Shown here in pieces: positions 6,512 through 18,390 of a DNA stretch of 26,450 bases. The DNA is taken from positions 1 through 26,450 of the IMG/VR virus record IMGVR_UViG_3300032896_000011; one strand, 5' to 3'. How positions within the stretch are numbered: the stretch's first letter is position 1; each line of letters begins with the position of its first letter. Position numbers and translations under genes: made by a program. The DNA comes from a virus. The notes beneath the pieces were generated by a model. That model did no database searches. It was not told where the DNA came from and was given only the letters and a program-made list of their open reading frames with translations.

Positions 6512-8077
6512 ATGGACGTTTATCGGATCGGCGTCACCATTTCGATGGTGAACAACGCTTCGGCAGTCCTGGGTGTGATCCAGCGGGACGTGCTGAGGCT
6601 GCACCAGTCGGTGGATATGCTGACCGGCGGCTTCGCTGCGGCAAAGGCGGCGGTTGCTGGGCTTGGCGCGGCGCTTGGCGGCGACAGTGTGCTCGGGGTA
6701 ATGGGCAAGCTAGTGGGTCAAGGAAAGGAGCTGGCACGCCAGCAGGGCTTGGTCCAAGAACAGTTGCGGCATAGACCGGCGGTGATTCCTACCTTGCCGA
6801 CCGGAAGAAGCTTCAACGTTGTGACACAGGCGTTGGTGGCAACGAGCGAGTCCGAGGACTTCAAGGACGAACACCAGCTGACTACGGCGTCCGGTAGAGC
6901 AGCCCGTGCTCAGAGCAACTTGACTTTCGATGTCAAGGCACGACCGCTAATGGGGTCGATACTCGGCGTTAGCGATCAAGATAAGTCGTTCCACCAAGCG
7001 AAGACGCCGACAGCCCCGGACGGTTCGCAAAAGCCGAACCCGGCTACGGTGATGAATTCGGCGATCGGTACGAGCAGCTTTATTGACCCGATCATGTCCG
7101 CTCTGGCACAGAGTATGAACGCCAGTGGCACCAATGCCTCAATACCTCGGGCCAGCACTCCGCTGCAGCCAGCAGTCTGGGATCTGACGGGCGGCGTGAT
7201 GAGCGGCAACCAGCAGGGTGACTCCGCAGAGGCACCTGGGTCGCAGGCAAAGCTTTATCCGTCCGGCGACCATATCGCCCAGCAAGTCGGAACCGTGTTC
7301 GCTACACAGCGAGCGCGGTCGGAGACAGACCCCCCCTTGAATCGCGACGCGTCCAGGATCGGCAGCCTTAACGCGCTGGTGCCGAACGACCCGACCGAGA
7401 ATATCAAAACGTTCCAGAGAACGTGGAGCAACCTTTTGACCACGCTCGGCACTCCGCTGGTGGATACTGCGAGCAACCTGATGGTGTCGCTCACCCGCGC
7501 GATGAATGACTTCAGTCAATGGGCGGTAGCGCATCCCGGATTGATAGGGGCCATCGAGAAGACTGATGGCGCACTAGCGGCACTGGCTGGAGCAGCTGGG
7601 CTGTTCGCGATCGGAGCAAAGGCAGCGACTGCGCTCGGTCTGTTGACCGGCCCAACCGGGTTGATCGGATTGGGAGCGGGTATCGAGATGTTGGGCAAGG
7701 CATTGCCGTCGGCGGCGTCTTGGCTGGAGCACTTGGCGGCAGGCTCGGCCACTGGAGTGGCAACGGGCTCTGCTGTCTCTGTCATCGGGACACCGACCGG
7801 GGCTACAAGCGTGGCGGGCTTGGGGACGCTGAGCTCGGGCACGACCAGTGGCATTGGCGCGAGAATGCCGATCGGCAGTTCGGCTGTACCACCGAGCGCG
7901 TCGAGTGCGGGACCGAACGGGCCGGTGCCGGTTTATGTCGTGAACGGCCGCGATATTGCCGATGGAACCACCGCGCACCAGGCAGCGCTGATATCCGCGC
8001 CGCCCAATGGCCCGACCGGGGGCGACCCTCGGATGAGCCTGCCGATGCCAGCTTTTGGCTCAATTGTCGGGCTGTAG
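6512..8077 (+). CDS. Tail tape measure protein (short)
   Basis: A 521-residue protein directly after the chaperone and gp10-like genes. The N-terminus (YRIGVTISMVNNASAVLGVI, then LHQSVDMLTGGFAAAKAAV) has the amphipathic helical start seen in tape measure proteins. A hydrophobic stretch at about residues 354-395 (LAALAGAAGLFAIGAKAA, then LGLLTGPTGLIGLGAG) matches the membrane-inserting segment typical of the family. The middle (about 90-290) is polar, less conserved-looking and with lower GC than its neighbours. If residue length scales with tail length as in other phages, the tail would be short, roughly 80 nm. The start codon ATG has only a weak upstream AGAAG signal. Confidence 0.75.
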   Translation: MDVYRIGVTISMVNNASAVLGVIQRDVLRLHQSVDMLTGGFAAAKAAVAGLGAALGGDSVLGVMGKLVGQGKELARQQGLVQEQLRHRPAVIPTLPTGRSFNVVTQALVATSESEDFKDEHQLTTASGRAARAQSNLTFDVKARPLMGSILGVSDQDKSFHQAKTPTAPDGSQKPNPATVMNSAIGTSSFIDPIMSALAQSMNASGTNASIPRASTPLQPAVWDLTGGVMSGNQQGDSAEAPGSQAKLYPSGDHIAQQVGTVFATQRARSETDPPLNRDASRIGSLNALVPNDPTENIKTFQRTWSNLLTTLGTPLVDTASNLMVSLTRAMNDFSQWAVAHPGLIGAIEKTDGALAALAGAAGLFAIGAKAATALGLLTGPTGLIGLGAGIEMLGKALPSAASWLEHLAAGSATGVATGSAVSVIGTPTGATSVAGLGTLSSGTTSGIGARMPIGSSAVPPSASSAGPNGPVPVYVVNGRDIADGTTAHQAALISAPPNGPTGGDPRMSLPMPAFGSIVGL

Positions 8078-12448: not shown

Positions 12449-13174
12449 ATGGCGACCGGCGATCAGAACGATATGGCGGCCCGCATCCGGGCCGTCCTGC
12501 CGGCTGGATGGTTCCCGGACAGCGCGCCGATCCTGACGGCCATCCTGACAGGGTTTGGCGCGGTATGGGCGCCGATGTATGCCCTGTTGGCCTGGGTGCA
12601 GTCGCAGACCCGCATCACCACGGCGACTGGTGCGAACCTCGATCTGATCTCGCTCGATTTCTTCGGTGGCGACCTGCCGAGGCGAGCCGGCGAAAGCGAC
12701 GCGGCCTTCGAGGCACGGATTGAACGCGAGTTGTTCCGGGCGAAGGGCACGCGCGCCTCGGTAGTGCGGGAGTTGACCGACCTGACCGGGCAGACGCCTC
12801 GTATCTTCGAGCCGCGCCTGACGTCCGACACCGGCGGCTACACGATTGGCGGCGTCGGCTATGGAGCGGGCGGCGGCTACGGAAGCCTGCTGCTGCCGTT
12901 CCAGTTCTTCGTGCAGGCGTATTTTGCCATCGCCACGCCAATCGCGAACGTCGGCGGCTACTATGTAGGCGCAGGGTGGGGTGGTGGCGGATACGGCGCC
13001 GGCGCGATCGAGTATGCCGATACCGAGAACGTGCCAGGCTTGATTCAGGATTCCGACATCTACGCTGGGGTGAACAACGTCCGGCCAGTGGCAACGATCG
13101 CCTGGGTGGCGATTTCCGCGGCACCGGTGCTGCCCGATCCTCCTGGCGTCTGCGGGGGAGTGATGGCGTCGTGA
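12449..13174 (+). CDS. Tail protein I-like baseplate wedge protein
   Basis: A 241-residue protein directly after gpJ, where the gpI/gp6-like wedge protein is expected. Residues 20-125 contain ILTGFGAVWAPMYALLAWVQ, then GANLDLISLDFFGGDLPRRA, ESDAAFEARIERELFRAKGT and VVRELTDLTGQTPRIFEP, a pattern shared by phage tail proteins that anchor fibres. Residues about 128-185 are Gly/Tyr-rich (GVGYGAGGGYGS, later GAGWGGGGYGAG). The last residues (PVLPDPPGV) resemble the opening strand of an FN3 domain. The ATG lies 2 bases after the gpJ stop, and the TGA overlaps the next GTG (GTGA). Confidence 0.65.
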   Translation: MATGDQNDMAARIRAVLPAGWFPDSAPILTAILTGFGAVWAPMYALLAWVQSQTRITTATGANLDLISLDFFGGDLPRRAGESDAAFEARIERELFRAKGTRASVVRELTDLTGQTPRIFEPRLTSDTGGYTIGGVGYGAGGGYGSLLLPFQFFVQAYFAIATPIANVGGYYVGAGWGGGGYGAGAIEYADTENVPGLIQDSDIYAGVNNVRPVATIAWVAISAAPVLPDPPGVCGGVMAS

Positions 13175-13410
13175 CTGTATGGGATGGCGTGCCGCCGAAC
13201 ACCGAGCCGGGATGGCATCTGCTGCGCCGGAAGCCGAGCGCCTATCCCAGGCCGCCTTGCGGCGGCCGCGAAGAGGCTTATCACTACAACAGCAACCGGC
13301 GGCTTCCGTGGGAACGCAGGGAGGATTGCTTGCGTAAAGGCTATTCCCGCGAATGGATTGCGCGCGAATGGGAATATGCGGGGCGGCTCGTGCTTGAGGG
13401 GACGTCATGA
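13171..13410 (+). CDS. Small unknown protein between gpI and the FN3 fibre
   Basis: A 79-residue protein read from GTG 13171, which overlaps the gpI stop, to TGA 13408-13410, which overlaps the ATG of the fibre gene. Both ends therefore show coupling-type overlaps, good evidence that it is real. It is basic and aromatic: WHLLRRKPSAYPRPP, then EEAYHYNSNRRLPWERR and GYSREWIAREWEYAGRL. No domain is recognised, and no TM segment or signal peptide is visible. From its place it could be a fibre connector or fibre-folding helper; that is speculation. A longer open frame from 12976 is not used because it would lie deep inside gpI. Confidence 0.6.
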   Translation: MTVWDGVPPNTEPGWHLLRRKPSAYPRPPCGGREEAYHYNSNRRLPWERREDCLRKGYSREWIAREWEYAGRLVLEGTS

Positions 13411-14588
13411 CGATCGGCCCGAATAGTCTCGGCCTGTCGTGGACCGCTCCGACATCGGGGGGCGCGCCGATATATGGCTACACGATCGTGTCGCGGGTAA
13501 CAGGCACGGGTCCATTCTCTATTGTCGCCGCGGGCCTGACCGGTACGAACTACGAGGTCACGGGGCTGACGCCGAGCACGTCGTTCGATTTTGCGGTATT
13601 CGCTGTGAATGCCAACGGTCCCGGCCCGATATCGGCGATCATCACGCAGGCGACGCAGGGCGCGGTGCCGAACGTGCCAACCGGACTTGTGGCTTCCGCG
13701 GGGTCGCCGGCCTATTCGGCCGTGGCGCTGTCCTGGACGGCGCCGGCCACCGGTGGACTTTATGGACCAGCCACCAGCTACGTCGTCCAATATAGAGTGC
13801 ATGGCAGCGGGAGTTGGACGACGGCGGCCAGCAGCGTCATGAGCGCCAGCTACATGGTAACGGGGCTCTCGCACGACACGGCCTACGATTTCCAGGTGTT
13901 CGGAGTGAACAGTGTCGGCGCGGGCGCGGCTTCCAGCATGGTAACACTGACGACTGACTATGCCCCGCCGAATGCGCCCATGGTCAGCAGTGTCGCACCG
14001 GTGAATGACGGCACCACGTCGGAGCTGGCGGTCACATGGACAGCGCCGGCGACCGACTCGACACATGATGCGGCGACCGGGTACAACCTGCAATACAGCA
14101 TCCACGGCGCCGGGTCCTGGACGCTTGTTACTGGGGTAGCGAGTCCTTACACGATCACCGGACTGTCGGCGGGCACGTCCTATGACGTGGAGGTGGAGGG
14201 CACGAATGCATCCACGACCTCGCCCGGCGCATGGTCGAGCGCCACGACGAACAGCACATACTCGAGTGCGCTGACGTGGGGCGTCAGTGGGCAGCCGCAA
14301 TCGTCGTTCACGCATGGTTCCGGGAACATTAACGGGGTGAACAACGCGGGCATCAACGTCAGTGCATCGCCCGAGCCGTCCACCGTCTATCTCGACGCCA
14401 CCACGTCGAACACCGTGATCCCGACCGCCGGGCTGACCAGCGTGACCTATTACAATTCGACCTATCAATGGGCGGCCTATTATCCGGTGCCTGACGCGCC
14501 GGGCACCTATTACCTGTGGGCATTGGCGCAAAACAGCAGTGGCAATCTGATAGGCGCCATGGTCTCCGGCGCAATCACTGTCTCGTAG
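13407..14588 (+). CDS. Tail fibre with three FN3 domains and a C-terminal tip domain
   Basis: A 393-residue protein. Three fibronectin type III domains are visible by the LSWTAP, SYxVTGL and YDFxVxxVN signatures at about residues 1-86, 87-186 and 187-287. The first lacks the usual leading proline-rich strand, because the ORF begins at TIGPNSLGLSWTAP. Residues 288-393 form a beta-rich tip (STVYLDATTSNTVIPTAG, then GTYYLWALAQNSSGNLIG) that resembles the C-terminus of the fibre at 16594-18390. FN3 domains in phage tails usually mediate weak sugar binding or act as spacers. No adaptor or chaperone domain is visible. The ATG overlaps the preceding stop (ATGA). Confidence 0.8.
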   Translation: MTIGPNSLGLSWTAPTSGGAPIYGYTIVSRVTGTGPFSIVAAGLTGTNYEVTGLTPSTSFDFAVFAVNANGPGPISAIITQATQGAVPNVPTGLVASAGSPAYSAVALSWTAPATGGLYGPATSYVVQYRVHGSGSWTTAASSVMSASYMVTGLSHDTAYDFQVFGVNSVGAGAASSMVTLTTDYAPPNAPMVSSVAPVNDGTTSELAVTWTAPATDSTHDAATGYNLQYSIHGAGSWTLVTGVASPYTITGLSAGTSYDVEVEGTNASTTSPGAWSSATTNSTYSSALTWGVSGQPQSSFTHGSGNINGVNNAGINVSASPEPSTVYLDATTSNTVIPTAGLTSVTYYNSTYQWAAYYPVPDAPGTYYLWALAQNSSGNLIGAMVSGAITVS

Positions 14589-14615: not shown

Positions 14616-14631
14616 AACCGGAGTTCCCGAT

Positions 14632-14868
14632 GTGCGTGACCAAAACCGCCATGCGGCGGCGCCGACAGATGCGCCGCGATCATCGCTATCGGGCCCGAGG
14701 CCCAGCAAGCCTGGCCCTACGAAGGCAGTGGACAACAAGCCAGGGCGCAAAGACGGCAAAGACGCCGACGAGCCCAGGCCGCAAGTAACCTGGCGCTGCC
14801 CTTGTGGCTACGTGAATCTGGCGCACCACACCTGGTGCTCGCGCTGCTCGGATGGGCGCAAGTGTTGA
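14632..14868 (+). CDS. Small zinc-finger protein, RanBP2-type-like
   Basis: A 78-residue protein starting at GTG 14632, the first start after an in-frame TAG at 14587; GGAG at 14620-14623 lies 8 bases upstream. Residues 1-50 are basic, Pro/Gly/Lys-rich and probably disordered. Residues 54-72 match W-x-C-x-C-x3-N-x6-C-x2-C (Trp54, Cys56, Cys58, Asn62, Cys69, Cys72). This is the RanBP2/NZF zinc-finger pattern except that the first cysteine pair is spaced by one residue instead of two to four. Such fingers bind single-stranded RNA or ubiquitin in eukaryotes; here the ligand is unknown. The stop overlaps the possible start of the next ORF. It lies inside a fibre cluster, with no obvious structural role. 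Confidence 0.6.
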   Translation: MRDQNRHAAAPTDAPRSSLSGPRPSKPGPTKAVDNKPGRKDGKDADEPRPQVTWRCPCGYVNLAHHTWCSRCSDGRKC

Positions 14869-15044
14869 CACGCCGCGTGTTCGTCGTGCTGACCCCGGAC
14901 AGGCAGCCGTGGACCGACCGCGCCTTCGGGACGGAACAGCATGCGTGCGGCTCGGTCTGCGGTGCGATGGGCGTGTATTGGCCACAGCTTGCGGCGGGTG
15001 GCTGGCGCATCGTGCCAGCCGAACTGCTTATCAGTTGCCAGTAG
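14862..15044 (+). CDS. Small unknown ORF ending in the heptamer array
   Basis: About 60 residues from GTG 14862, or TTG 14865 overlapping the zinc-finger stop as TTGA. The sequence VFVVLTPDRQPWTDRAFGTE, then GSVCGAMGVYWPQLAAGGWR looks protein-like, with balanced charge and a hydrophobic core. It ends at TAG 15042-15044 inside the CAGTNGY array. No family is recognised. It may be an intact small gene or the front part of a gene interrupted by the array. Confidence 0.4.
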   Translation: MLTRRVFVVLTPDRQPWTDRAFGTEQHACGSVCGAMGVYWPQLAAGGWRIVPAELLISCQ

Positions 15045-15059: not shown

Positions 15060-15277
15060 GGACGGCATTGATCGCGCAAGCTGTCGCCTGCGGCGGCGTG
15101 CCAGTGCATTTCGATAGCCTGCCGCTTGCGATCGAATTTCTGCGCATGGTCACGCACCAGATCGTGCCCGAGCAATGGGTGGCGATGGTCAAGGCGCTGA
15201 TCCCGGCGCCGCACACCGCAGAGGCGGTGAGGGCTGCGCAGGATATGGCGACCAAGTGCCTCGGCACGCCTTCTTAA
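15035..15277 (+). CDS. Small unknown ORF starting in the heptamer array
   Basis: About 80 residues if started at TTG 15035, the best available start in frame; no ATG or GTG precedes the body nearby. The body is convincingly protein-like: WTALIAQAVACGGVPVHFDS, then LAIEFLRMVTHQIVPEQWVA and ALIPAPHTAEAVRAAQDMAT, mostly helical. No family is recognised, and there is no clear ribosome binding site. It may be the rear part of a gene whose front is the ORF at 14862-15044. It ends at TAA 15275-15277, about 30 bases before the next fibre gene. Confidence 0.45.
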   Translation: MPVVSGQSWTALIAQAVACGGVPVHFDSLPLAIEFLRMVTHQIVPEQWVAMVKALIPAPHTAEAVRAAQDMATKCLGTPS

Positions 15278-15309: not shown

Positions 15310-16587
15310 ATGGACAGACAAATTGTTTATCCGGGAGCCATTCCGCTCGACACCGACGTGCTGAACCTCGAACGCAACGTCATGATCGCAGAAGGCTTTC
15401 TGGCCCAGGGGGCGTTCGGAACCGGGACGCAGGTGTGGGGGCTTTCCTGCGGGCCAACGACCCCGGCTTCGATGAGCATCTTGGTGGGGCCGGGCGCGAT
15501 CGTTTCCCAGCAGGTGGTCGATCAGAACGCCTTCGGCTCGCTGGCGGCCGACACCACCGATGCGCTGGTGAAGGTCGGCATCAATCTGACCAGCACCACG
15601 CTGACCACCACGGCGCCATCCAGCGCGGGGCAGTCGATCAACTACCTGATCGAGGCATCGTTCCTTGAAGAAGATACCACGCCGGTGGTGCTCCCGTACT
15701 ACAACGCTTCCAATCCGGCGCAGCCGTACACGGGTCCGTCCAACTCCGGCGCGGCGCAGAACACACAACGTTTGCAGCGAGTGCAGTTGCAGCTCAAGGC
15801 TGGCATCCCAGCCAACGCCGGCACGCAGACCACGCCGGCGGTCGATAGCGGCTGGGTCGGGCTCTACGTGGTGACTGTCGCCTACGGGCAGACCACGGTT
15901 ACGACTGGGAACATCAGCGCCTACCCGGCGGCGCCGTTCGTCGGTGGCGGGAAGCTGACCACAGGCCGGCTCATCAACGTACAGACGTTCACCACCAGCG
16001 GCACGTATTGGTCCACCCCGGGAACTGCCTCGATAATTATCGAGGCGGTCGGCGGCGGCGCCTCGGGCGGCGGCACGGCGGCCACCGGCGCCGGACAGGG
16101 CTCGGTGTCAAGCGGAGGGGGCGCCGGCAGCATCGCGGTCGGGCGCTTCACGTCGGGCTTCACCGGCGGCTTAGCGGTCACGATCGGAGCTGGGGGCGGT
16201 GCACCGTCCGCGGGTCAGAACAACGGCAACAACGGCGGCACGACGAGCGTCGGACCGCTGATCTCGTGTCCTGGTGGTCTCGCCGGTGTCGGCGGCCCGG
16301 CCACCAACGGCAACCTGATCGTGTCGCCCGCCGGCAGCGTCGCCAGCTCGCCGAGCGGTGGCAACATCTACCAGGCAGTAGGGCAGCCTGGCAGCTACGG
16401 GCTCATGTTCAGCCCAAGCACCGGCTACTATGCCGGCGCGGGGACGGGTGGTGTCTCGCCGTTGTCAGCGGGAGCCAGCGGCCCTGGCGCCGGCGGCGCC
16501 GGCACGAACGCGGCTGGGGCCAGCTCGGCGGCGAGCGCCGGGATCGCCGGCAATGCCGGGATCGTCGTCATCTACGAATACGCGTGA
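15310..16587 (+). CDS. Tail fibre with glycine-rich C-terminal domain
   Basis: A 425-residue protein. The N-terminus (RQIVYPGAIPLDTDVLNLER, then NVMIAEGFLAQGAFGTG) and the region through residue 215 (VDSGWVGLYVVTVAYGQTTV) are typical of phage fibres that attach to the baseplate. From residue 225 (VQTFTTSGTYWSTPGTAS, then IIIEAVGGGASGGG) it becomes the glycine-rich domain found at the tips of many phage fibres, ending in IAGNAGIVVIYEY. In characterised T-even adhesins polyglycine stretches form a receptor-binding sandwich; similarity here is only in composition. AGAAGCAA precedes the ATG. It is one of two proteins in this window with this kind of domain. Confidence 0.75.
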   Translation: MDRQIVYPGAIPLDTDVLNLERNVMIAEGFLAQGAFGTGTQVWGLSCGPTTPASMSILVGPGAIVSQQVVDQNAFGSLAADTTDALVKVGINLTSTTLTTTAPSSAGQSINYLIEASFLEEDTTPVVLPYYNASNPAQPYTGPSNSGAAQNTQRLQRVQLQLKAGIPANAGTQTTPAVDSGWVGLYVVTVAYGQTTVTTGNISAYPAAPFVGGGKLTTGRLINVQTFTTSGTYWSTPGTASIIIEAVGGGASGGGTAATGAGQGSVSSGGGAGSIAVGRFTSGFTGGLAVTIGAGGGAPSAGQNNGNNGGTTSVGPLISCPGGLAGVGGPATNGNLIVSPAGSVASSPSGGNIYQAVGQPGSYGLMFSPSTGYYAGAGTGGVSPLSAGASGPGAGGAGTNAAGASSAASAGIAGNAGIVVIYEYA

Positions 16588-16593
16588 CGCCGC

Positions 16594-18390
16594 ATGCCAA
16601 CCATCGCCCAACTGCCGGCTGCCGCGCAGGCGTTGTCGAACGCTGATCTGATCCCGATCGATCAGAACGTTGGTGGGACTTACACGACGGGGCAGACGAA
16701 CCTTGGCTCGCTGCTGTCTTTGCTGGCCGCTAGCAACCTGCTGCCAGTGTCGATGTATAGCGGCGCCGGCGCGCCGACGAGTGCGGTCGGCAGCGTCAAC
16801 GGCGATGCCTACCTGAACACACAGAACGGCGATCTGTGGCAGTTTGCGTCCGGCACCTGGACGATGGTTGGGTCGCTGCTCGGGCCGGCTGGTGCTGCGG
16901 GCGCGCAGGGGCCGGCGGGGCCGAGCTATTCGATCACCGCGCAGCCCACCGTGACCAGTATCGCCGGGACCGACCTAGTTGGGATCAGCCAAGGTGGGTC
17001 GGATCATACGATTACGCTGGCGAACCTGCTGAATGGCGAAACGATCGACCAGGGCGCCGCGGCTGCGCCGGCGTCGAGCACCGACACGTTCTGGGTCGGC
17101 CAGGGCGGCAGCAGCATGGTGGTGCAGAGCATCGGCGCATTGTGGCCGTGGATCGTCGGGCAGTTGCGTAGCTATTTCCTGCCGGTGATCGAGTTTGTGG
17201 CGAACGCCACTCTCGATGGCTCGGTCCACAACGGTAAACTGCTGATCTGCTCGCAGCCGATCACGATCACGGCCGGCGGCACGATGGGCAGCGGGTTCTC
17301 GTGCACGATCATCAACGTATCGGCCGGCACCTGCAACCTATCGGGGTTTACGACGTCCTCGGGTAGCGGGACCCTGTCGCCCGGCCAGTCGGCGATCATC
17401 TATAGCGCGGCTTACAGCGCCGGCACCGTCTATTACGCGATGATCGCCGGTGGCGCATCGACGCCCCCCTCGCCGCCCGGCACGCCGATCGGTCTGACTG
17501 CCGGCACCCCGACAGCTTCCACCGCTCCACTGTCCTGGACGGCGCCGGGCAGCGGCGGCGCGCCGGCAAGCTACACGGTGCAGTATCGCGTCGCGGGCGG
17601 CAGTTCGTGGACGCAGGTTTCCGGGATCAGCGGTACGTCCTACAGCGTGACCGGGCTCTCGGCCAGCACCGAATACGATTTCCAGGTGCAGGCAGTGAAT
17701 GCCGGCGGGACGAGTGCCTGGACAGCGACGACGAATGTCACCACGGCGGCCGGCACCGCGCCGGGCGTGCCCACGGGCCTATCGGCTGGTTCGCCGACCA
17801 GCAGCAGCGTCGCGCTGTCATGGACGGCGCCATCCGTTGGCGGCATCGGCGCGACCTACAATGTGCAGTATCAGGTGCAGGGGGCGGGTTTGTGGACTGC
17901 TGGGCCATCGACCAGCTCGACCAGCGTCACGGTGATGGGGCTCTCAGCAAGTACCACGTACAATTTCGAAGTCCAGGCGGTCAACGGTGGGTTGACGAGC
18001 GCATGGACGGCCTCGGTCTCCGAAGCAACCACGCCCGCGAGCAACTATCTGCTGACGTCCGGGCTGTATCCGTCCGGTTCGTTCGCGGCGGGTCAGGGAG
18101 GTATCCCGGTCAACGTCGACGACAACAGCACGGCGGCCGAGGGTAGCCATACCGTTCCTGCCAGCGTGTCGTTCGGCTGGTCCACGAGCAGCACGACGGC
18201 ACCGAGTTCCCTGACCACTGCCGCCGGCACGTCGCAGAGCATTCCCGGCGAGACCGGCCGTAACATCTGGTATCAGTGGATCGGTGGGCCTTCGACTGCC
18301 GGGTCATACTATTTCTGGGCCATCGCCTACGACGCGAGCGGAACCCAGGTCGCGCAATACGTTTCGCCCACGGCGTTCACCTTTTCGTAG
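16594..18390 (+). CDS. Tail fibre with collagen-like linker, two FN3 domains and shared tip domain
   Basis: A 598-residue protein. The N-terminus (TIAQLPAAAQALSNADLIPI, then GGTYTTGQTNLGSLLSLL) is the common baseplate-attachment motif of phage fibres. Residues 97-110 are a short collagen-like GPAG..GAQGPAGP run, likely a trimerising linker. Residues about 120-285 form a beta-rich shaft. Two FN3 domains lie at about 290-386 and 389-480, with the same signatures as in the fibre at 13407. Residues about 485-598 form a tip (VSFGWSTSSTTAP, then GSYYFWAIAYDASGTQVAQ) similar to the tip of that fibre. It starts 6 bases after the preceding stop and is the last gene before a 164-base gap. Confidence 0.8.
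   Translation: MPTIAQLPAAAQALSNADLIPIDQNVGGTYTTGQTNLGSLLSLLAASNLLPVSMYSGAGAPTSAVGSVNGDAYLNTQNGDLWQFASGTWTMVGSLLGPAGAAGAQGPAGPSYSITAQPTVTSIAGTDLVGISQGGSDHTITLANLLNGETIDQGAAAAPASSTDTFWVGQGGSSMVVQSIGALWPWIVGQLRSYFLPVIEFVANATLDGSVHNGKLLICSQPITITAGGTMGSGFSCTIINVSAGTCNLSGFTTSSGSGTLSPGQSAIIYSAAYSAGTVYYAMIAGGASTPPSPPGTPIGLTAGTPTASTAPLSWTAPGSGGAPASYTVQYRVAGGSSWTQVSGISGTSYSVTGLSASTEYDFQVQAVNAGGTSAWTATTNVTTAAGTAPGVPTGLSAGSPTSSSVALSWTAPSVGGIGATYNVQYQVQGAGLWTAGPSTSSTSVTVMGLSASTTYNFEVQAVNGGLTSAWTASVSEATTPASNYLLTSGLYPSGSFAAGQGGIPVNVDDNSTAAEGSHTVPASVSFGWSTSSTTAPSSLTTAAGTSQSIPGETGRNIWYQWIGGPSTAGSYYFWAIAYDASGTQVAQYVSPTAFTFS

Follow-up and report, generated by a model that had tools for sequence, protein, structure and literature searches.

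A RanBP2-fold zinc-finger microprotein from an accessory tail-gene cassette of a phage, a candidate docking adaptor

The RanBP2 finger is best known from eukaryotic RNA processing and nuclear transport. A small open reading frame that ends in a finger of this appearance lies among the tail genes of the virus record IMGVR_UViG_3300032896_000011, a stretch of 26,450 bases (referred to here as the window), and it raises the questions of whether the frame is a gene, whether its finger belongs to the RanBP2 fold and which role such a protein could play in a phage. A first-pass annotation of this DNA had read the pattern W-x-C-x-C-x3-N-x6-C-x2-C at the C-terminus, and the pattern is present exactly as written in the frame 14632-14868 (finger letters W-R-C-P-C-G-Y-V-N-L-A-H-H-T-W-C-S-R-C, C-terminal in a protein of 78 amino acids). 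The same annotation described a preceding basic disordered tail of about 50 residues. A tail of 53 residues is indeed present, but its net charge is +4 in the window and 0 and +2 in the two relatives described below; basic charge is therefore not a conserved property of the tail. The setting between two fibre genes was only half right: a fibre gene lies downstream, with two more small ORFs separating it from the finger gene, whereas the upstream neighbour encodes a tail protein with fibronectin type III (FN3) domains. The features of the region are the following:

12449..13174, + strand, baseplate-region gene, left boundary of the cassette; 241 aa; PHROG phrog_26379 (2.3e-65); its stop overlaps orfX (GTGA)
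13171..13410, + strand, orfX, cassette gene of 79 aa that starts with GTG; stop overlapping the FN3A start (ATGA)
13407..14588, + strand, FN3A, cassette gene; tail protein of 393 aa with three fibronectin type III stretches
14620..14623, + strand, GGAG, 8 bases upstream of the finger-gene GTG; likely its ribosome-binding site
14632..14868, + strand, finger protein gene; 78 aa, GTG start, TGA stop overlapping the ORF2 start (TTGA)
14632..14790, + strand, N-terminal low-complexity tail of 53 residues, variable
14791..14847, + strand, putative RanBP2-fold zinc finger W-x-C-x-C-G-x2-N-x6-C-x2-C, from selection, model and PDB matches
14865..15044, + strand, ORF2, cassette gene; 59 aa; its start overlaps the finger stop
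15068..15277, + strand, ORF3, cassette gene; 69 aa, TTG start
15310..16587, + strand, fibre gene bounding the cassette on the right; PHROG tail fiber assembly (7.3e-29)

Homologues of the finger protein, which the annotation had proposed to look for next to phage fibre genes, were found at the same place in two other phage contigs of IMG/VR, IMGVR_UViG_3300032895_000052 (L002) and 3300032896_000012 (L003), with 73% and 66% identity to the window copy, respectively. The cysteine and Trp/Asn positions, whose variation among homologues was to have counted against the finger, are all kept in both, so that the Trp, the four Cys and the Asn are conserved in 3/3 contigs. The frame could nevertheless be no gene but a chance opening between fibre genes. 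Its small size and GTG start would fit that explanation, as would an overlapping frame of 52 aa at 14630 that has an ATG and a codon-position signal that is weak in the tail, and the probability that a frame stays open over 40-52 random substitutions is 0.46-0.39. Against it, no other frame, forward or reverse, among the six is free of stops in all three copies as the finger frame is, and the alternative frame at 14630 has stops inside the finger region. The indels within the finger ORF are multiples of three, with the exception of one extra base beside the L003 start codon, where the frame is recovered by an ATG located two bases upstream. The overlap of the finger stop with the ORF2 start is conserved (TTGA, ATGA or GTGA in the three copies) and the GGAG is aligned with identical bases in L002 and L003. 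The dN/dS ratios of the finger (25 codons) are 0.18 for window-L002, 0.14 for window-L003 and 0.45 for L002-L003, which indicates purifying selection in all three comparisons, as estimated from few codons and three sequences; adding the last two codons gives 0.54, 0.36 and 0.23 in the same order. For the tail, with identities of 58-72%, the corresponding ratios are 0.63, 1.05 and 0.37, and for the neighbouring genes (baseplate, FN3 and fibre) they range from 0.06 to 0.18 in the same three pairs. The finger is thus better conserved than the tail in both window comparisons but not in L002-L003, the numbers being small. With the fold match described below, a chance frame is already disfavoured and we consider it very improbable.

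A structural model of the window finger, folded on 102 sequences of the finger class presented below, reached a pLDDT of 84 overall and 93 in the core; since these fingers were picked by motif, the model is not independent of the motif. It predicts, without zinc, two short beta hairpins with strands at 10-12 and 18-20. The model of the whole protein, built from three sequences, has low confidence (pLDDT 52) and was set aside, so that the fold comparison uses the finger model only. With Foldseek, rows 1-16 are all RanBP2/NZF fingers (16/16), from Nup153, Trabid, RanBP2, ZRANB2 and HOIP, with a probability of at least 0.93 and E-values of 0.32-1.1, none at or below 0.001, values that are weak because the domain is tiny. 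The best match is the ZnF3 of Nup153 (TM 0.69/0.86, rmsd 0.7, 27 columns). In the VIA list, from which the absence of a family does not exclude that family, Z is at most 4.3 for the finger and 2.0-2.3 for unrelated rows (RadD, bacterial ribosomal proteins). Model, Foldseek and VIA thus agree with the RanBP2/NZF-like fold with shortened first cysteine spacing that the annotation had suggested, and which it had proposed to check by structure prediction. At the level of sequence profiles, that of the three relatives had the ZNF265/ZRANB2 finger (E 0.055) as its sole PDB match at E≤10, and the profile of the class matched RBM10 (1.1e-4), eL40 (1.6e-4), ZNF265 (7.9e-4), FUS (5e-3) and ArnA (0.035), matches that are partly built in because the class was selected by motif.

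The HMM searches recommended at first pass had a different outcome. The window protein was unmatched by zf-RanBP (PF00641) at E≤10 and matched none of the prokaryotic zinc ribbons; no Pfam family at all was detected at E≤10 for the whole protein, for a finger stretch of 35 aa or for the relatives L002 and L003, in a search where HMMER filters drop many weak matches. The Trp two positions before the first Cys, the Asn four positions after the second Cys and the x6-C-x2-C half are found in 3/3 copies. The first knuckle, however, is C-x1-C in 3/3 copies and fails the RanBP2 consensus C-x2-4-C given in the available text of PMC6384913, and the finger is therefore called here a RanBP2 variant and not a member. 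The four invariant cysteines suggest that it would bind a single zinc.

The C-x-C form is not restricted to the window. Scanning viral contigs for the DNA pattern W-x-C-x-C-G-x2-N-x6-C-x2-C gave at least 121 matches in at least 119 stretches. Among the 121 matches listed, 10 have an internal stop, 111 are open and 100 are distinct; by our own arithmetic (12 free codons, uniform codon use) about 44% would contain a stop by chance, so most of them appear to be real. From the first Met, 54 of the 100 distinct fingers listed are in ORFs of at most 56 aa and 75 in ORFs of at most 100 aa. The class set of 102 fingers consists of the window, L002, L003 and 99 of these 100 (one repeats L003). At E≤1, 16 of its members match PF00641 and 19 match Zn_Ribbon_1, the window finger matching neither; 15/102 match L40e of NCBIfam at E≤0.1, where the window finger is again unmatched. 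Any one PHROG family matches at most 3/102 members, and the window finger protein has no PHROG match at E≤1. In bacterial genomes, the C-x-C pattern has at least 127 matches, with two stops among those listed, and most listed titles are Clostridia. The bacterial proteins that bear the same W-x-C-x-C-G finger (L191-L309), mostly from Clostridia, are several hundred residues long and carry it well inside the chain, some in two copies. None of 25 bacterial pattern stretches encodes a relative of the window protein. Given the similarity of the baseplate gene to a gene of a Komagataeibacter phage, 299 genomes from the family of an Acetobacteraceae MAG were also scanned: C-x-C occurs in three of them (one match with a stop), C-x2-C in one and a reversed C-x-C control in one, counts too few for comparing the spacings. 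Named-phage homologues were sought by tblastn of the finger protein in 50,697 phage records; the 17 records recovered, at E 2-5, were judged to be chance, 15 of them matching residues 9-43 of the tail only. Two other class members had no match in phage records at E≤0.01 and E≤0.1, respectively.

A second phage family contains the two spacings. Its small finger proteins have a GGTNAGW-type N-terminal motif (L323-L329, and also L076, L106, L116 and L183), and the gene lies upstream of the terminase large subunit, on the same strand, in the 7/7 contigs where this was found, at a distance of 175-886 nt in six contigs and about 2 kb in L327. The finger is C-x-C in L106 and C-x2-C in L327 (with Tyr for Trp and otherwise similar letters), and L329 has the C-x2-C knuckle too, so that the shortened spacing is a real variation among relatives. 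These proteins resemble the window protein in being small phage proteins with the same finger, and differ from it by their position upstream of the terminase and by their N-terminus; they may represent an unrecognised packaging factor. In L166, a finger ORF (7657-7809, - strand) is located directly 3' of a different kind of terminase large subunit (phrog_9).

Because the C-x-C finger recurs across many small proteins of phages, with both spacings present in one family, the window finger is best interpreted, from sequence and model, as a variant of the RanBP2 fold and not a chance motif. With a one-residue change of the first knuckle seen among relatives, the lack of a PF00641 match is probably due to the spacing and not to another fold. 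RanBP2-type fingers (PF00641; ZRANB2, Nup153, RBM10, NZF) share with it the Trp, the Asn, the x6-C-x2-C half and two short beta strands and supply its best PDB sequence and fold matches, whereas the C-x1-C knuckle and the lack of a Pfam model match set it apart. The prokaryotic zinc ribbons (PF13240 Zn_Ribbon_1, DUF7577) and the archaeal protein eL40 share the C-G-x2-N-x6-C-x2-C half; prokaryotic ribbons usually have C-x2-C and no leading Trp. According to the available text of PMC6509490, the archaeal ArnA has an N-terminal RanBP2-type finger, a prokaryotic case (the ArnAB structure 8s05 is Foldseek row 18), but ArnA is a motility regulator in which the finger is joined to an FHA domain, and not a phage microprotein. 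Other prokaryotic cases mentioned, beside ArnA (PMC6509490), are parts of YprA-family helicases; RanBP2-type fingers in phages were described in none of the papers listed from the open full text covered (PMC7641849 and PMC12458937 included).

The finger gene is embedded in a cassette with the order orfX, FN3A, finger, ORF2 and ORF3, where orfX, FN3A and ORF2 are joined to the preceding gene by the overlaps GTGA, ATGA and TTGA. The baseplate gene on its left has relatives at 68 loci of viral contigs, and about half of its protein aligns, at 47% identity, with a Komagataeibacter phage protein encoded next to the annotated baseplate J-like gene; tail sheath and baseplate wedge genes are localized further upstream. 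FN3A matches PF00041 (2.2e-33, three stretches) and a PHROG minor tail protein (2.1e-09), with dN/dS of 0.15-0.17. The protein orfX, present in three other contigs with 70-87% identity, has no match in Pfam or PADLOC. ORF2 and ORF3 are conserved in L002 and L003 with identities of 80-83% (dN/dS 0.25-0.37) and 83-89% (dN/dS 0.08-0.12), respectively; the sole Pfam match of ORF3, YdiH, is weak (E 0.22), and neither has a match in named-phage records at E≤1. Pattern scans of the viral contigs found orfX, ORF2 and ORF3 in this clade only, by a method that depends on short exact peptide patterns and may overlook more distant relatives.

The junction between the baseplate and fibre genes was surveyed in 63 rows from 60 contigs where both genes were found. 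In 48 rows the gap does not exceed 121 nt, and in five it is 198-263 nt, the baseplate match there being partial and the true gap smaller. It reaches 2139-2370 nt in six rows, which come only from the three finger-bearing contigs. Two rows with about 1.1 kb (L060, L063) were considered as junction insertions and rejected, the baseplate gene itself being enlarged: it is about 250 residues longer, in its middle (L060 1823-3301, L063 661-2085). In the last two rows, with 1.6-1.7 kb, there is one extra ORF of 508 or 574 aa (L017 3263-4789, L023 5632-7356) at the same junction, which consequently takes more than one insert. The 63 rows do not include nine loci where the baseplate gene was found without a fibre match. 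Of these nine, L004 carries orfX and the beginning of FN3A, at which point the contig ends, and L013 has, by eye, a fibre-like ORF directly after the baseplate gene, with no BLAST match. The end of the baseplate gene likewise coincides with the start of a fibre-gene relative (38% over 212 residues) in the Komagataeibacter phage phiKX1. This synteny shows that the genes from orfX to ORF3 form a clade-specific accessory cassette inserted between the baseplate and fibre genes. Promoters and terminators were detected between 12300 and 15500 at chance level only, and so no separate transcription unit is claimed.

The finger class as a whole is not tied to fibre genes. A tally of the neighbours of other phage fingers was restricted to fingers in ORFs of at most 200 aa and neighbours of at most 900 aa, and 109 of 160 neighbour ORFs were searched, duplicates and many opposite-strand or short ones having been dropped by eye. 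A terminase large subunit family comes first with five, whereas tail fibre is represented by one family, once, in the best 25 of 122 families. The named neighbours in these best 25 include packaging and DNA-metabolism genes.

What the finger might bind was addressed by comparing its residues with the contacts of known fingers, since eukaryotic ones had been described at first pass as binding ssRNA or ubiquitin. In NZF fingers that bind ubiquitin, a Thr-Phe pair follows the second Cys and a hydrophobic residue is in the last knuckle. All three copies have Gly-Tyr after the second Cys and an Arg in the last knuckle, and ubiquitin binding is unlikely because the Thr-Phe pair is replaced by Gly-Tyr. 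For ZRANB2, the ssRNA contacts reported in the available text of PMC6384913 are D4, an aromatic residue at 17 (W17), R19 and R20. With that numbering, and D4 placed directly before the Trp by our own alignment, the window family has T (V in one copy), L, H and H, that is 0/4 of these contact side chains, which goes against ssRNA binding in the ZRANB2 mode. An aromatic residue at position 17 is found in 10 of the 100 phage class fingers listed. With all four RNA contacts absent, docking onto proteins is the known use of the fold that remains. Around the knuckles, Tyr60, Val61, Leu63, His65, His66 and Trp68 form an invariant aromatic and hydrophobic face, and this face, together with the lack of ZRANB2 or NZF contacts, favours docking onto a protein. 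Against docking, the packaging and DNA-metabolism neighbours of other fingers fit nucleic acid binding equally well; with the terminase neighbours of the class, they keep nucleic acid binding alive.

Sequence, selection and model support a microprotein that consists of a flexible tail and a single RanBP2-fold finger at the C-terminus. Beyond this, we propose tentatively, as a reading with a little less than an even chance of being right, that it is a real phage microprotein made late with the tail genes, whose finger docks onto one protein partner and which serves as an adaptor for a variable tail appendage. Late expression would follow from the gene order, docking would involve the aromatic and hydrophobic face, and the tail would be mainly a tether. 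The nearest candidate partners are in its own cassette, the FN3 protein or the products of ORF2 and ORF3; the cassette genes co-occur wherever the contigs reach, and co-occurrence cannot single out one of them. The protein would then act as an accessory adaptor or assembly factor of the appendage.

The main rival is a translational regulator like Com of phage Mu, which would bind the mRNA at the start of ORF2 and switch on its translation. In the available text of PMC6483171, Com is a CCCC zinc-finger protein of 62 aa with a disordered tail that binds the region of the mom translation start. The gene com overlaps mom and is located after gin and the Mu tail-fibre segment, so that Com offers a precedent for a small phage finger whose gene lies close to tail-fibre genes and overlaps its target; the finger gene likewise overlaps the next gene (TTGA/ATGA/GTGA) near tail-fibre genes. 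The resemblance is limited, however, by the order of the protein, Com having an N-terminal finger followed by a disordered segment where the window protein has the reverse, and by an overlap of 4 nt, as in ordinary coupling, against 50 in com-mom. A Com-like hairpin was looked for at the junction of the finger gene and ORF2 in the three copies and was not supported: no unusual RNA structure was apparent (z-scores +1.79, -0.64 and -0.62, for three sequences only), and the single hairpin shared by all three predicted folds falls within the invariant finger codons. As the protein moreover has 0/4 of the ZRANB2 RNA contacts and no Pfam family at E≤10, regulation of this type seems unlikely, though worth keeping in view. 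Quite unlikely in turn is a host-takeover or counter-defence moron, also raised at first pass, whose finger would dock onto a host protein or the ribosome after late expression. Such a function would agree with an optional, clade-restricted cassette whose junction is occupied by other inserts in L017 and L023, with the variable tail and with the match of the class profile to the archaeal ribosomal protein eL40, but the gene is in a late structural block between virion genes and not in an early region. PADLOC, a library of defence and not of counter-defence proteins, matched 0/5 cassette proteins at E≤1.

Returning to the docking adaptor, a broader and more doubtful extension is that a large, mostly uncatalogued phage class of RanBP2-fold C-x-C microproteins supplies plug-in docking modules at virion morphogenesis loci, namely upstream of the terminase in one family and in the baseplate-fibre cassette in the window. 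If this were true, the RanBP2 finger would be an old module of prokaryotes and viruses. A fold regarded as typical of eukaryotes is present in many small proteins of phages, in a C-x-C form that largely escapes the standard family models (no match for the window, 16/102 listed class members for PF00641 at E≤1). The C-x-C-G pattern is a cheap way to find such proteins, and the cassette is a small system for testing the partner of a finger.

Elsewhere in the window, the FN3 proteins encoded at 13407-14588 and 16594-18390 are 38% identical over 315 residues, which suggests that they arose by duplication. Near the right end, a gene at 25273-26016 matches phrog_19005, a family of unknown function, at 1.1e-32.
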